Part shown: positions 1,509 to 28,773 of the stretch, one piece after another | Position numbering within the stretch: the stretch's first letter is position 1 | How the letters are laid out: every line of letters starts with the position of its first letter | Origin: a virus | Direction: 5' to 3' (one strand) | Length of the DNA: 28,773 nt | Virus record (IMG/VR): IMGVR_UViG_3300037847_000455 | Span: 1 to 28,773 of that record | Notes under the pieces: generated by a model | Databases searched by the model: none | The model's input: only the letters and a program-made list of their open reading frames with translations | Told to the model about the DNA's origin: nothing | Made by a program: the position numbers and the translations under genes

Positions 1509-1544
1509 TCAAATAAAAACGGCACTTTTCTATTATATTAATAT
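1509..1544 (+). promoter_or_regulatory. Phage late-promoter motif, copy 1
   Basis: TCAAATAAA (1509-1517), ten bases, then TTCTATTATATTA (1528-1540). The same two boxes with the same 19-base start-to-start distance occur at 14503, 16112, 25528 and 27356. The site lies between a terminator and the ATG at 1545. The 20 bases at 1528-1547 are identical to 16131-16150. It lacks the TAnnTTTG element of host promoters, which suggests recognition by a different sigma factor. Confidence 0.75.
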
Positions 1545-7673: not shown

Positions 7674-7828
7674 AATGTATATATACTAGACAACACTTAA
7701 AGTCGCTTATCTAGTCAAAACACTATTAACACCTAAATTGTTGATAACTTTGTGTGAAAAGTTGTGAGTATTGTTTTATTTGTTTATCTTTGTCCACGTA
7801 AAACTAAGTTAAATTAAATAAAATTAAA
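7637..7828 (+). promoter_or_regulatory. Intergenic control region between late and early modules
   Basis: This is the longest accepted gene-free stretch (192 bp). It holds the T-rich tract above, a perfect palindrome GTATATATAC (7677-7686), an inverted repeat ACTAGA (7685-7690) / TCTAGT (7710-7715), a DnaA-box-like TTATCAACA on the minus strand (7739-7747), and the early promoter at 7762-7792. An operator or origin here is possible; only the promoter is well supported. Confidence 0.5.
7762..7792 (+). promoter_or_regulatory. Early promoter of Bacteroidota type
   Basis: TTG (7762-7764), 20 bases, then TATCTTTG (7785-7792), matching the Bacteroidota -33/-7 consensus (TTG...TAnnTTTG). Transcription would start near 7798 and read the 7829 gene and the replication module with an A-rich leader. 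A second -7-like octamer TAACTTTG lies at 7745-7752 without a matching -33 box. Confidence 0.75.
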
Positions 7829-11249: not shown

Positions 11250-11468
11250 ATGAAAACACTAACACAAAAAGACAGAATTTTAAGACATTTAAACGACAAA
11301 GGCAGTATAACTGCACTTGAAGCTATGAAAGAATACGGCATAATGAGATTGACTTCAAGGATATGCGAATTAAAAGATGAAGGATATAGAATTAGGAGTG
11401 AATTTGTAGGCAGTAAAAATAGATATAACGAACCTGTATCTTTTAGTAAGTATTCACTTATTAAATAA
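11250..11468 (+). CDS. Small winged helix-turn-helix protein
   Basis: This 72-residue protein matches a phage wHTH pattern: KDRILRHLNDKGSITALEAM (residues 7-26), then YGIMRLTSRICELKDEGYRI as the recognition helix region (29-48), and a C-terminal wing ending FSKYSLIK. It is probably a DNA-binding regulator or a nuclease accessory factor. The start is ATG 11250 after an A-rich tract, and NinG follows one base after the stop. The target is unknown. Confidence 0.7.
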   Translation: MKTLTQKDRILRHLNDKGSITALEAMKEYGIMRLTSRICELKDEGYRIRSEFVGSKNRYNEPVSFSKYSLIK

Positions 11469-11880: not shown

Positions 11881-11901
11881 TATTTTTTATAACTTTGAAC
11901 A

Positions 11902-12261
11902 ATGCAAAAACCAATATATGCAAACGAGCAGCACAAAAGTATAATTGAAGCGTATTTACTAATGTGCAAAAACTTTGCAGAAGATGTATCATCAAAAAAC
12001 AGATACAATAATTATTTAGAAGTAATAGATATTATTATAGATTATTCAAATAATTATGGAACAGGAAATAAAGAGAATGGTAACTTTTATGATTGGCTTA
12101 TGGTAATACCTATAAATTTATCAGTTGCAACAAATGGCTTTTTTGCAGGAATAGAAACAAAAAGAAATGCAGCAGTAATAAGAGCTTATAAAGTTTTGCT
12201 TGAACAAATGATACACGAAGTAGCAGAAAAGCTATATGAATTAGAGCCTAAAAATGACTAA
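11902..12261 (+). CDS. Hypothetical helical protein
   Basis: This 119-residue protein starts MQKPIYANEQHKSIIEAYLL and is almost all helix, with a DYSNNYGTG turn in the middle and a final helix (VLLEQMIHEVAEKLYELEP). It is neutral and soluble. It overlaps the sigma-like gene by eight bases, suggesting coupled translation and perhaps a shared task such as anti-sigma or co-activator activity, for which I have no direct evidence. A lone TAACTTTG octamer precedes it. Confidence 0.6.
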   Translation: MQKPIYANEQHKSIIEAYLLMCKNFAEDVSSKNRYNNYLEVIDIIIDYSNNYGTGNKENGNFYDWLMVIPINLSVATNGFFAGIETKRNAAVIRAYKVLLEQMIHEVAEKLYELEPKND

Positions 12262-12835
12262 GATTTATATAGAAATATCTAAGTTAACAGATAAATTTAG
12301 ATCAATGGCTTATGGATTAACAACAGATGAAAATAAAGTGAATGAAGCAGTCCAAGAATTAATGCTTTATTTTTTACAAGCAAATCCTATAACTATTAAA
12401 AATATATATGAAAAAGATGGAATAGAAGGAATAACAAGATATGGTGCAGTAGCTTTAAGAAGAGCTTTAAGAAGCAAAAGAAGTAGTTTTTATTATAAGT
12501 ATGAAAAGTATTATACACATATCGATAGCTTTAATGCTACTATTAGTCAATCTTGCGACAATATTGATTATGGAAATAATGCTAATTATTATAAGGCTTT
12601 ATCAAATGTTCCAAATGAAAAAATAGACAATACAAATTTAATTAAATTAGAAATGATAGATAAAGAGCTGGACAAGTTAAGTTGGTATGATAAGCAGTTA
12701 TTTGAATTGTATTATTATGAAGATAATACGCTTGATTCGCTTAGTGCTAAAACAAATATAAGCAGAAACAGTATATATACAACAATAGATAAAGTAAGAA
12801 CAATACTTAAAAAAGAACTCAATGAAGATGTATGA
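12254..12835 (+). CDS. Sigma-70-family-like RNA polymerase sigma factor
   Basis: This 193-residue protein has a two-part layout suggestive of a small sigma factor. The N-terminal part resembles region 2 (NEAVQELMLYFLQA near residue 28, RYGAVALRRALRSKR near 60). The C-terminal part resembles region 4, with an HTH: LDKLSWYDKQLFELYYYEDN followed by TLDSLSAKTNISRNSIYTTI (about 155-174). A less ordered, Asn-rich linker lies between. It would direct host core RNA polymerase to phage promoters. It sits near the end of the early module, just before the late packaging genes, and is the obvious candidate reader of the five-copy motif. A non-sigma HTH protein remains possible. Confidence 0.65.
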   Translation: MTKIYIEISKLTDKFRSMAYGLTTDENKVNEAVQELMLYFLQANPITIKNIYEKDGIEGITRYGAVALRRALRSKRSSFYYKYEKYYTHIDSFNATISQSCDNIDYGNNANYYKALSNVPNEKIDNTNLIKLEMIDKELDKLSWYDKQLFELYYYEDNTLDSLSAKTNISRNSIYTTIDKVRTILKKELNEDV

Positions 12836-12923
12836 TCCAATAAAGAAAAATAGTTTTGTAATGCAATTTGGATTTGATTACCCTGATAAGGTTGTTACAT
12901 ATAAAAGTAAAAAAAGTGAATAA
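12822..12923 (+). CDS. Small hypothetical protein (33 aa)
   Basis: ATG 12822 lies inside the end of the sigma-like gene and the frame codes for 33 residues (MKMYDPIKKNSFVMQFGFDY and a basic tail). The overlap is like that of its neighbours, but a chance ORF is possible, especially if the zinc-ribbon gene starts upstream at TTG 12868. Confidence 0.3.
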   Translation: MKMYDPIKKNSFVMQFGFDYPDKVVTYKSKKSE

Positions 12924-13686: not shown

Positions 13687-13940
13687 CACTATACAAATGT
13701 AAATGCGGTAACCAAGAAGAAATTGGAAAGCAAACTATTGCTTTAAGAGATGGTAGGTGGAGAACTATACAAGCTTTATGCGAGTGCGGACTTTGGATGG
13801 AAGCAGAACCTGAAGAAGGTATGCCTAGCTTAATAAGAACAGAAGCATCTTTAAGCACAAAAAAAAGACACGACAAATTATGGGATAGTGCAAAAGAAAA
13901 GTTAGTAGGAGAAAGAGGTGTAAACGAACCTTTTAACTAA
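13683..13940 (+). CDS. Small zinc-binding protein
   Basis: Eighty-five residues with two Cys-x-Cys-Gly knuckles: KCKCGNQEEIG at the N-terminus and LCECGLWMEAEP near residue 32. A helical C-terminal half follows (KKRHDKLWDSAKEKLVGE). The layout suits a single zinc ribbon. Its ATG overlaps the DUF3310 stop and its stop overlaps the next gene by one base. The partner and role are unknown. Confidence 0.6.
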   Translation: MTLYKCKCGNQEEIGKQTIALRDGRWRTIQALCECGLWMEAEPEEGMPSLIRTEASLSTKKRHDKLWDSAKEKLVGERGVNEPFN

Positions 13941-14140
13941 TGAGAAAAAGAAGATCAAGAACATATTTAAAAACACTAAAAGCAAAAGCTGTTAAGTATT
14001 ATTTAGAAAATCCTAATATAAACTTAAAAATAATAGCTGATAAATTTAACATTACTGAACAACTATTAAGTAAAGCTATAACTACTGAATTAAAGAAAAA
14101 ATTTAATAACAGCTTTAGCAGAAGAATGTCAAGTTTATGA
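13940..14140 (+). CDS. Small helix-turn-helix DNA-binding protein
   Basis: Sixty-six residues, very basic (MRKRRSRTYLKTLKAKAVKY), with a likely HTH at residues 28-50 (NLKIIADKFNITEQLLSKAI). It is like a resolvase- or transposase-type HTH without a catalytic domain. The end overlaps the NinB-like gene by four bases. It lies close to the late-promoter copy at 14503, so a control role at the early/late switch is possible. Confidence 0.6.
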   Translation: MRKRRSRTYLKTLKAKAVKYYLENPNINLKIIADKFNITEQLLSKAITTELKKKFNNSFSRRMSSL

Positions 14141-14520
14141 ATTTTGTAATAAATAACAACCAAGACAAACAATCGCTTTTTAATTACTTAAAAGAGCTGG
14201 AAACAGATTACATAGTTAAAGTAAAGAAACAAAGAAACAATAGAAGCAATATGCAAAACAATTACTATTGGGCGTGTATAGTGCAGCCGTTAGCAAATGA
14301 GCTAGGATATTTTCCTGATGAAATGCACGATACTTTAAAAGTAAAGTTTGCAAGTGAATGGCAAAGCATAGACATAAATGATAAACAAATAGGACTGCAA
14401 ACAGTAAACAGCACAGCTAGAATGAATACAAAAGAATTTGAGATATATGCAGACCAAATTAGAATATGGGCTTTAACAGAACTAGGTATAAGATTAATGT
14501 TACCAAATGAATATGAGTAA
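14137..14520 (+). CDS. NinB-like recombination protein
   Basis: This 127-residue protein resembles the lambda NinB (Orf) group, which binds single-stranded DNA and assists recombination. YIVKVKKQRNNRSNMQNNYY (about 25-44) is followed by WACIVQPLANELGYFPDEMH (45-64), LKVKFASEW, and MNTKEFEIYADQIRIWALTE near residue 95. R-S-x-x-Q-N-x-Y-Y-W and the D-E-x-H turn are the features I rely on. It pairs functionally with NinG, as in lambda. The late-promoter motif starts inside its last codons. Confidence 0.6.
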   Translation: MNFVINNNQDKQSLFNYLKELETDYIVKVKKQRNNRSNMQNNYYWACIVQPLANELGYFPDEMHDTLKVKFASEWQSIDINDKQIGLQTVNSTARMNTKEFEIYADQIRIWALTELGIRLMLPNEYE

Positions 14521-14534
14521 TTTCTATTATATAA
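14503..14534 (+). promoter_or_regulatory. Phage late-promoter motif, copy 2 (terminase unit)
   Basis: CCAAATGAA (14503-14511), ten bases, then TTCTATTATATAA (14522-14534). The upstream box differs from TCAAATAAA at two positions and overlaps the end of the NinB-like gene; the spacing is identical to the other copies. It precedes the terminase genes. Confidence 0.65.
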
Positions 14535-14565
14535 ATAAGTATTGAATAATCAATTTTTTTCAATT

Positions 14566-14838
14566 ATGGATAAAAGAATAAACAATGGTGGTGCTAGAAA
14601 GGGTGCAGGGCGTAAGAGCAAGGCAGAAGAACAAAAGTTAATAGAGAACCTAACGCCTATGAATGAAAAGGCTCTAAAGTCCTTAGAACAAGGATTAGAC
14701 AAAAAAGAACAATGGGCAGTTAAGCTGTTCTTTGAATACTTTTATGGTAAGCCACAACAAAGAGTAGATGTTACTTCAAATGATGAAAGTATTAATATGC
14801 CTTTAATAAACTTTGTAGAAACTGAACCTGAACAATAA
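14566..14838 (+). CDS. Small terminase subunit-like protein
   Basis: From ATG 14566 the product is 90 residues. It opens MDKRINNGGARKGAGRKSKA, a GARKGAGR basic lead common at the N-terminus of phage small terminases, continues with helices (ALKSLEQGLDKKEQWAVKLF) and ends YGKPQQRVDV plus an acidic tail. TTG 14542 would add eight residues and lies nearer the late promoter. The small terminase recognises the packaging site and loads the large subunit, whose gene follows directly. Assignment is by motif and neighbour. Confidence 0.7.
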   Translation: MDKRINNGGARKGAGRKSKAEEQKLIENLTPMNEKALKSLEQGLDKKEQWAVKLFFEYFYGKPQQRVDVTSNDESINMPLINFVETEPEQ

Positions 14839-16024
14839 ATATCAAGCGTTATTTAACTCTAAGGCACGATACTTTATTATAACAGGTGGTAGAGGATCAG
14901 GCAAGTCATTTGCAGTTACAGTATTCCTTACGTTACTTACTATGGCACAAGGCATAAGAGTTTTGTTTACACGATACACAATGGTATCAGCACACTTGTC
15001 AATTATTCCTGAATTTTTAGAAAAGATAACACTACTTGGATTTGAGAATATTTTTAGTGTAAATAAAGCCGAAGTTGTAAACTTAGGCAATCAATCAGAC
15101 ATACTATTTAGAGGTATTAAAACTTCAGCAGGTAATCAAACTGCTAGTTTAAAGTCATTACAAGGAATAAGCTGCTTTGTGTTAGATGAAGCAGAAGAAT
15201 TAGTAGATGAAGATATTTTTGATACTATTGATTTAAGTATTAGAGAAAAAGACAAACAAAATAGAGTTATACTTATACTTAATCCTGTAACTAAAGAGCA
15301 TTGGATTTACAAAAGGTTTTTTGAGGACAAAGGCGTTGAAGCAGGTTTTAATGGCGTTAAAGACAATGTATGCTATATCCACTCTACATACCTAGACAAT
15401 AAAGAAAACCTCTCTACGAGCTTCCTAGACCGTATTAAGAGTATAAAGCATAATAACTTTAAAAAGTATCAGCACAGAATATTAGGCTCTTGGCTTGATA
15501 GAGCAGATGGTGTAGTGTTTGATAATTGGAGTATTGGAGAATTTAATCCTGATGGCTTACAAACTTCTTGTGGTATGGACTTTGGGTTTAGTGTTGATCC
15601 TGATAGTTTAACTGAAGTAGCTATTGACAAAAAGAAACAAAAAATATATTTAAAAGAGCATATTTATAAGAATGGTTTAAAGTCGCAAGAATTAGCACAA
15701 ATGATATTAGACAAAGTAGGTCAGAAGTTAATTATTGCAGATAGTGCAGAACCAAGACTTATAGCAGACTTAAAGCACTTAGGAGTAAATATAAAACCTG
15801 TAAAAAAAGGAACTATTGAAAGCGGTGTAACTCGTATGCAAGATTTTGAAATTGTTATAACGCCTGAATCAACGAATATAGCAAAAGAATTAAACAATTA
15901 TATTTATGCAGATAAAGGAAGTAAATTGTATGTAGATAATTACAATCACGCATTGGACGGAGTGCGTTATAATATTATATACCACTTAGACAATCCTAAT
16001 GCTGGGAAGTATTTTGTGCAGTAA
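14822..16024 (+). CDS. terL: Terminase large subunit (apparent CTG start)
   Basis: This is the packaging motor and nuclease. The frame must begin before the Walker A motif GGRGSGKS (22-29), but the first ATG (14942) lies after it. The in-frame TAG at 14816 leaves CTG 14822 or CTG 14828 as the best starts; 14822 gives 400 residues opening x-NLNNKYQALF, a family-like lead. Walker B is FVLDEAEE (residues about 119-126), the coupling segment is LILNPVTKEHW, and nuclease acidic residues are in GMDFGFSVDPD (D253), IIADSAEP (D307) and HALDGVRYN (D379). It overlaps the small subunit by 17 bases, suggesting translational coupling or frameshifting. Confidence 0.9.
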   Translation: MNLNNKYQALFNSKARYFIITGGRGSGKSFAVTVFLTLLTMAQGIRVLFTRYTMVSAHLSIIPEFLEKITLLGFENIFSVNKAEVVNLGNQSDILFRGIKTSAGNQTASLKSLQGISCFVLDEAEELVDEDIFDTIDLSIREKDKQNRVILILNPVTKEHWIYKRFFEDKGVEAGFNGVKDNVCYIHSTYLDNKENLSTSFLDRIKSIKHNNFKKYQHRILGSWLDRADGVVFDNWSIGEFNPDGLQTSCGMDFGFSVDPDSLTEVAIDKKKQKIYLKEHIYKNGLKSQELAQMILDKVGQKLIIADSAEPRLIADLKHLGVNIKPVKKGTIESGVTRMQDFEIVITPESTNIAKELNNYIYADKGSKLYVDNYNHALDGVRYNIIYHLDNPNAGKYFVQ

Positions 16025-16111: not shown

Positions 16112-16147
16112 AAAAATAAAATAAAATTATTTCTATTATATTAATAT
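16112..16147 (+). promoter_or_regulatory. Phage late-promoter motif, copy 3 (tail unit)
   Basis: AAAAATAAA (16112-16120), ten bases, then TTCTATTATATTA (16131-16143). The last 20 bases up to the ATG (16131-16150) are identical to copy 1. The upstream box lacks the TC start but keeps AAATAAA at the same spacing. It drives the tail module that starts at 16148. Confidence 0.75.
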
Positions 16148-25527: not shown

Positions 25528-25560
25528 TCAAATAAATATTAATTAATTCTATTATATAAT
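25528..25560 (+). promoter_or_regulatory. Phage late-promoter motif, copy 4 (protease unit)
   Basis: TCAAATAAA (25528-25536), ten bases, then TTCTATTATATAA (25547-25559). ATG 25561 follows almost at once, so a transcript starting a few bases after the second box would have almost no leader. Same 19-base spacing as the other copies. Confidence 0.75.
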
Positions 25561-27355: not shown

Positions 27356-27387
27356 TCAAATAAATAAATAACTATTCTATTATATTA
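27356..27387 (+). promoter_or_regulatory. Phage late-promoter motif, copy 5 (scaffold-capsid unit)
   Basis: TCAAATAAA (27356-27364), ten bases, then TTCTATTATATTA (27375-27387). The start codon of the scaffold gene is at 27399, so the leader would be slightly longer than in the other copies. This site would drive scaffold, capsid and tail-tube genes up to the terminator at 1476-1502. Confidence 0.75.
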
Positions 27388-28141: not shown

Positions 28142-28773
28142 ATGGCTTTAAGTACAACTAGCAATTATGCGGGGAAATCAGCGGGAATTTATATATCTGC
28201 TGCCCTACGTCAAGCAAACTCAATGGAGTACTTGACAATGATAGAAAATATTAAATACAAGAGTAATATACAAAAAATGTCTGCGAGTGACATGATTTCA
28301 GATGCTACTTGCGACTTTACAGAAGGAGCAAGTTCATTAGCTATGACTGAAGCAGTATTAACTCCGAAGAATCTACAAATTAATACAGATTTATGTAAAC
28401 AAGAACTTTTAGATTCTTGGGAAGCAGCACAAATGAGAGCGGGAGCAGGTGCACCACCACCAGCTTCTTTTGATGACTATGTAATTTCTTATCTAGGTGA
28501 GGTTATTGCAAATGGAACTGAAACATCTATCTGGACAGGTAGAGATACTCAGGCAGGTGAGTTTACAGGTTTTGTTCATGGAGGAGCGGGACACTTAGTA
28601 ACAGACGCAACAGTAGTAGATGTTGCTAACGACGGTGGTGCAGGTAATGCTTATACTGCAGCTAATATACTTGATAACTTAAAAGCTTGTACAGCGGCTA
28701 TACCGACAGCAGTTTACACTAAAGACGATTTACATATTTATATGTCGCCTAAATCTTATAGATTATACATACA
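28142..28773 (+). CDS. Major capsid protein, N-terminal part (continues at position 1 on the circular map)
   Basis: The ATG follows an A-rich tract 14 bases after the scaffold stop. The product starts MALSTTSNYAGKSAGIYISA and, from residue 47, repeats the sequence of the left end of the window with three substitutions (Ala for Thr, Gln for Lys, Thr for Ser). It runs off the end of the window after 210 complete codons. The full protein is 305 residues with the C-terminal part at 1-779. Confidence 0.85.
   Translation, partial: MALSTTSNYAGKSAGIYISAALRQANSMEYLTMIENIKYKSNIQKMSASDMISDATCDFTEGASSLAMTEAVLTPKNLQINTDLCKQELLDSWEAAQMRAGAGAPPPASFDDYVISYLGEVIANGTETSIWTGRDTQAGEFTGFVHGGAGHLVTDATVVDVANDGGAGNAYTAANILDNLKACTAAIPTAVYTKDDLHIYMSPKSYRLYI
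28281..28773. repeat. Imperfect terminal redundancy, right copy
   Basis: Ungapped match to 1-493 with 12 substitutions, all within the capsid coding frame and mostly at third codon positions. The overlap defines a 28,280-bp unit. Confidence 0.95.

Follow-up and report, generated by a model that had tools for sequence, protein, structure and literature searches.

A predicted ECF-like sigma factor and its candidate late promoters in a phage of a likely flavobacterial host

Genome organization

The window analyzed here is the whole of virus record IMGVR_UViG_3300037847_000455 (28,773 bases), in which every credible gene lies on the + strand. Read as a circle, the gene order runs from the early/replication genes through the 119-aa/sigma operon, a NinB-like gene, the terminase, the tail genes and the protease to the capsid and the portal (Table 1). 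The ends of the record overlap (positions 1-493 and 28281-28773 are 97.6% identical) and therefore the genome is probably circularly permuted or terminally redundant, with a length of about 28.3 kb; the record probably holds this genome completely, joined from slightly differing strains. Among known phages the nearest match of both TerL (63%) and the portal protein (34%) was Nonlabens phage P12024S, an isolated marine flavobacterial phage. This relationship, together with promoters of the Bacteroidota type, makes a flavobacterial host likely. The single match in a cellular genome (L193, PBGL02000003.1) was discarded as a host clue, being a 29-kb contig in a 'Euryarchaeota' MAG that is probably a mis-binned phage; it encodes a sigma 71% identical to that of the window and carries two late motifs.

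Table 1. Genes and putative promoter elements located in the window.
Feature	Position	Strand	Remarks
Putative late promoter	1511..1538	+	-35 AAATAAA (1511-1517), -10 TTCTATTATAT (1528-1538); ATG 1545, 6 nt downstream
Portal gene	3203	+	
Host-type (Bacteroidota) early promoter	7762..7792	+	TTG-N20-TATCTTTG; upstream of the early module
Early/replication module	7829 onward	+	
SSB-like gene	9291	+	early module
Replication initiation gene	10146	+	early module
NinG-like gene	11470	+	early module
Host-type -7 element of the sigma operon	11890..11897	+	TAACTTTG; ends 4 nt before ATG 11902
119-aa protein	11902..12261	+	first gene of the sigma operon; overlaps sigma by 8 nt
Predicted ECF-like sigma factor P0001, 193 aa	12254..12835	+	TIGR02937, PHROG 1740 and ECF profile matches, AF2 fold
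NinB-like gene	14137	+	after the 119-aa/sigma operon
Putative late promoter of the terminase operon	14505..14532	+	-35 AAATGAA, -10 TTCTATTATAT; 33-nt leader to TerS ATG 14566
Likely TerS, heading the terminase late operon	14566..14838	+	assigned by position and sequence type only
Putative late promoter, first gene after TerL	16114..16141	+	-35 AAATAAA, -10 TTCTATTATAT; ATG 16148, 6 nt downstream
Putative late promoter	25530..25557	+	-35 AAATAAA, -10 TTCTATTATAT; ATG 25561, 3 nt downstream
Protease gene	26084	+	
Putative late promoter ahead of the capsid protein	27358..27385	+	-35 AAATAAA, -10 TTCTATTATAT; ATG 27399, 13 nt downstream
Capsid gene	28142-779	+	across the record ends

The initial annotation had placed a small sigma-like protein, overlapped by a 119-residue ORF, near the end of the early module and upstream of the first late motif. 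This arrangement was found exactly as described, with a sigma ORF of 193 aa on the + strand that follows the replication genes and precedes that motif and an overlap that is kept at 8 nt in 59 of 60 relatives and measures 20 nt in the other. All 60 clade-A loci that extend far enough upstream carry a homologue of the 119-aa protein, whereas none was found in any other clade. Comparison of this protein with PHROG, PDB sequences and known-phage records gave no convincing match, and the earlier suggestion that it acts as a cofactor or anti-sigma is possible but an unsupported guess. On the other side, a 33-aa ORF (MKMYDPxKxxSFxMQFGF...) is located at 12822-12923, in overlap with the 3' end of the sigma gene, and at least 43 of the 64 clade-A loci have a recognizable counterpart; it is followed by a Cys-rich DUF6171 protein, with a likely GTG start at 12916, which occurs in 63/63 clade-A loci.

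Sequence family and predicted fold of the sigma protein

Region-2-like and region-4 HTH-like segments had been noticed in the protein. Based on Pfam searches with the window protein alone, the region-4 segment was recovered by Sigma70_r4_2 at an E value of 3e-4, under the curated cut-off, whereas region 2 was not found. PHROG 1740 ('RNA polymerase sigma factor') aligned to residues 15-191 (E 5e-5) and NCBIfam TIGR02937 (sigma70-ECF) to residues 28-189 (E 9.7e-9, 35 bits, cut-off 43). Because the single-protein scores of Sigma70_r4_2 and TIGR02937 stay below their curated cut-offs, the predicted sigma identity rests on the family. TIGR02937 was matched by 45/45 aligned members, and Sigma70_r2 scored above the Pfam cut-off in several syntenic sigma relatives from related phages. 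A wider-family profile that took in these syntenic genes retrieved solved ECF-type sigmas from the PDB sequences, namely sigma-H (3mzy, E 1.5e-9), SigW (2.9e-7) and SigL (4e-7). Two other matches were set aside: MraZ, found weakly (E 0.007) among PDB sequences with a profile of close relatives and gone with the wider profile, is attributed to chance, and a 44% stretch in phage cr131_1 reached only E 0.04 in a tblastn search of known phages with the window sigma.

Structure prediction likewise returned a sigma fold. An AF2 model from the wider-family alignment, which replaced one from close relatives only (pLDDT 66), shows a confident helical N-terminal domain (sigma2, residues about 1-87, pLDDT about 88) and a confident four-helix C-terminal domain (sigma4, residues about 127-189, pLDDT 82), joined by a disordered linker (residues 91-124, pLDDT below 50). 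In a Foldseek search of the PDB the top 50 matches were essentially all sigma factors with ECF members first, the best being SigL (6dv9, E 3.6e-4). SigmaE region 4 on -35 DNA (2h27) was among the matches with an rmsd of 1.8; domain-wise fits gave 1.8-2.6 A, and the sigma2 domain of SigR (1h3l) fitted with an rmsd of 2.0 A over 70 residues and a Z of 8.8, structural Z-scores of this middling range being common among helical proteins. The features of the ECF-like family are thereby recognized in the window protein: a sigma2 domain (TIGR02937 over residues 28-189, PHROG 1740, the Sigma70_r2 of relatives and the SigR fold), a sigma4 HTH (Sigma70_r4_2, below cut-off, and the sigmaE region 4 fold match) and a small size of 193 aa, without sigma1.1 or sigma3 and with a flexible linker between the two domains. 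Profiles and model together identify it as a predicted ECF-like (sigma2 + sigma4) sigma factor.

Late motif and putative late promoters

A motif shared by five late sites had also been reported. It corresponds to TTCTATTATAT, the commonest 11-mer of the window, found at 1528, 14522, 16131, 25547 and 27375, always in the sense of the genes, heading head, tail and packaging operons and never within the early module. In 300 dinucleotide shuffles the word turned up 0.03 times on average and never more than once. At a constant distance 5' of TTCTATTATAT, each of the five sites has AAAT[A/G]AA, a configuration of the type -35 AAA[C/T]xAA, spacer of about 16 nt and -10 TTCTATTATAT. The clade-A consensus reads TaAAcTAAA-N10-TTCTATTATAT, that is AAC-N16-CTAT, whereas the -35 in the window itself reads AAATAAA. 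A de novo search for k-mers enriched 5' of ATGs in clade A gave a list mixed with coding words and A-rich words. Copies of TTCTATTATAT on the minus strand of some relatives were discounted, as they mostly belong to one conserved context away from start codons.

Of the 60 clade-A sites located no more than 14 nt from a start codon, 56 stop 3-6 nt short of it; the sites stem from related genomes and not all of them are independent. At the terminase a leader of about 32 nt is retained. The late promoters of phage 7-11 are given as GTAAtg-16-aCTA with start sites 6-9 bp from the element (PMC8948821). Assuming similar start distances, leaders of about 0-6 nt would result for most late mRNAs. As the gap between promoter and start codon is mostly 3-6 nt, most late mRNAs are predicted to be leaderless or nearly so. 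Such messages would be unusual for the host and would stand out clearly against the transcripts of Flavobacterium johnsoniae, which mostly carry leaders, 87% of these leaders being longer than 10 nt (PMC6847099).

The proximity to start codons, with the motif end mostly 3-6 nt from the ATG, would also suit a translation-initiation signal that is no promoter at all, the more so as Bacteroidota do not use Shine-Dalgarno sequences (PMC6847099). This explanation appears hardly credible, as each genome has only about 3-5 copies of the motif, which mark operon heads and do not precede every gene, some 33 nt separate the terminase copy from its ATG, a second element is placed at a fixed 16-nt distance and the motif sequence varies between phages of one host phylum.

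Three other observations concern the terminase operon. The leader between the terminase promoter and TerS (14533-14565) contains a palindrome, TTGATTAATCAA / TTGAATAATCAA, conserved in many clade-A phages. The likely TerS had no Pfam match. Within 14566-16024, a conserved TerL N-terminus with the Walker A motif lies upstream of the first ATG/GTG/TTG (14942), and a conserved CTG codon overlaps the TerS stop, also in L161, L163, L166 and L182, which suggests that TerL may begin at this CTG or by a frameshift from TerS.

Co-variation of sigma factors and late promoters

A scan of IMG/VR yielded 306 stretches encoding relatives of the window sigma, of which 80 were kept. The motif was present in 20/20 full records with a clade-A sigma, in 3-5 gene-sense copies each, and a control pattern read backwards gave at most one match per record. 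In contrast, the clade-A motif was found in 0/15 related records with other sigma clades. The co-occurrence of homologue and motif expected by the initial annotation is thus observed, and the refuting outcome named there, homologues in phages that lack the motif, was not seen for this sigma clade. The exact 21-base promoter pattern was also seen in 8/27 IMG/VR stretches without similarity to window proteins; a rough estimate lays these matches to chance in A+T-rich DNA.

The sigma gene gp33 of P12024S lies at the same place, and related records carry divergent sigmas upstream of their terminase genes. At the late genes of P12024S the -10 is CGTTAATATA instead of TTCTATTATAT. In this phage and its relatives TAAAACAAA followed by CGTTAATA stands directly before late starts; CGTTAATA was located at 13 late starts, with zero clade-A motifs, and conversely clade A showed 65 A words near ATGs and zero words of the P12024S type. 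Nine of the 11 non-redundant sites of the P12024S clade read CGTTAATA + 4 nt + ATG with AAC-N17-CGTT, and de novo k-mer enrichment 5' of ATGs returned CGTTAATA as the top word of this clade. Both clades keep an ECF-type spacing, AAC-N16-CTAT in A and AAC-N17-CGTT in P12024S, with AAC in the putative -35 and a spacer of 16-17 nt. Other relatives with further divergent sigmas show ACGTTTATA, TTGTTTATA, AGTATTATATA, AGTTATATAA and others at the post-terminase promoter. This orthologous promoter (16131 in the window) was compared in 113 loci. The table of clades by words was nearly diagonal, the words having been picked after these promoters had been seen. For clades with sparse sampling, single-copy words serve as leads only. 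Just two clades, A and P12024S, offered numerous independent promoters in each genome, and the clade C motif is less sharp elsewhere than at the post-terminase gene.

The distances of sigma, terminase and promoter correlate strongly with one another (r 0.92 for sigma with TerL) and for this reason the co-variation could partly reflect shared ancestry. Taken to its limit, this would mean that sigma and promoter merely diverge as the phage lineage does and are functionally unconnected, a reading we regard as very improbable. The correlation of sigma with promoter survives correction for TerL in a partial Mantel test (r 0.24, or 0.31 without clade A; P 0.0005), while that of TerL with promoter given sigma is 0.08-0.09. 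A stronger argument than the Mantel test is that several unlinked promoters of one genome have changed together to one and the same new -10 word; this calls for a common, trans-acting reader. The concerted change of sigma and late -10 words points to the predicted sigma factor as this reader.

The common reader could be another DNA-binding protein of the phage that activates the host holoenzyme, the sigma serving other promoters. Two HTH proteins (11250-11468 and 13940-14140) are encoded in the early/middle region and the former is clearly of the winged-helix type (HTH_39, E 2e-15). Their homologues were detected in just 19/63 and 18/63 clade-A loci (E 1e-3, many loci being partial) whereas the motif is general; moreover, the motif shows the geometry of a sigma promoter (-35, 16-17 nt, -10, start) without operator-like symmetry, and no other promoter family that the sigma could serve was seen. 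On these grounds a different DNA-binding reader is improbable.

Proposed late switch and its meaning

Host-type promoters precede both the early module, as had been noted before, and the sigma operon, where TAnnTTTG stands at -12/-11 in 55/60 relatives. This placement puts the host sigma first and the phage sigma second, and the two-step order of the initial annotation is well supported at the level of promoter sequences. In the first step, the RNA polymerase of the host, carrying its own primary sigma, would transcribe the early module and the 119-aa/sigma operon, each from a TAnnTTTG promoter. In the second, the phage sigma would bind the host core enzyme and steer it to the five late promoters (AAA[C/T]xAA, about 16 nt, TTCTATTATAT) heading the terminase, tail and head operons, where transcription would begin close to the AUG and give mostly leaderless or near-leaderless mRNAs. 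We consider it very probable that the window sigma is such a late switch, redirecting host RNA polymerase to the five late promoters. On balance we lean slightly towards the broader view that, in this group of Bacteroidota phages, late sigmas and late promoters evolved jointly into many distinct pairs (at least TTCTATTATAT, CGTTAATATA, CGTTTATA and probably more), with late mRNAs starting at the AUG or a few nucleotides from it in a largely leaderless programme, in hosts with mostly leadered messages of their own.

Bacteroidota are major bacteria of the sea and the gut, yet the literature searched says next to nothing on how their phages control late transcription; the open-access publications searched contained no account of a sigma factor driving late genes in these phages, and matched pairs of sigma and late promoter as a natural switch set seem to be undescribed. 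The data yield a concrete promoter code that predicts operon starts in a widespread group of uncultured phages, and the naturally matched pairs could serve as orthogonal switches in Bacteroidota.

Comparison with known systems

T4 late promoters consist of a single TATAAATA element, and gp55 lacks the -35 recognition of the sigma4 type. The predicted window sigma resembles gp55 as a phage-encoded protein of the sigma family serving late genes and differs from it in having a sigma4 domain and a -35 element. T4 late transcription also needs the gp45 sliding clamp (PMC2988020).

With the cellular ECF (group 4) sigmas SigW, SigL, SigR and RpoE the window protein shares the two-domain build sigma2-linker-sigma4. 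The consensus -35 of ECF sigmas contains AAC, and AAC also stands in the putative -35 of the phage clade consensuses, with a spacer of 16-17 nt. Unlike its cellular counterparts, the phage sigma has no recognizable anti-sigma partner, would be directed to late genes and would read an A+T-rich -10 in clade A.

P12024S gp33, whose annotation goes no further than 'containing Sigma-70 region 2', shares the gene position upstream of the terminase and the promoter geometry. The terminase and portal of P12024S are 63% and 34% identical to those of the window, whereas the window sigma is about 16% identical in the alignment to close relatives of gp33, and the -10 is CGTTAATATA versus TTCTATTATAT.

Phage SU10 is probably a relative of the phiEco32/7-11 phages. 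Among phiEco32-like phages, late sigma factors whose promoters have diverged are an established finding, with phiEco32 gp36 and phage 7-11 gp47 as examples (PMC8948821). There, as proposed for the window, a small phage sigma moves host RNA polymerase to several late promoters after an early phase under the host sigma, and distant homologues in related phages read differing promoters at corresponding genome positions; the 7-11 promoters are also bipartite with a 16-nt spacer. The likeness is one of functional analogy. The phiEco32/7-11 phages infect enterobacteria and have larger genomes, that of SU10 measuring 77 kb (PMC4281155), and the passages of PMC8948821 consulted make no mention of a leaderless arrangement for them. 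Phage late sigmas are thus already known, and the window system differs from them as a variant.
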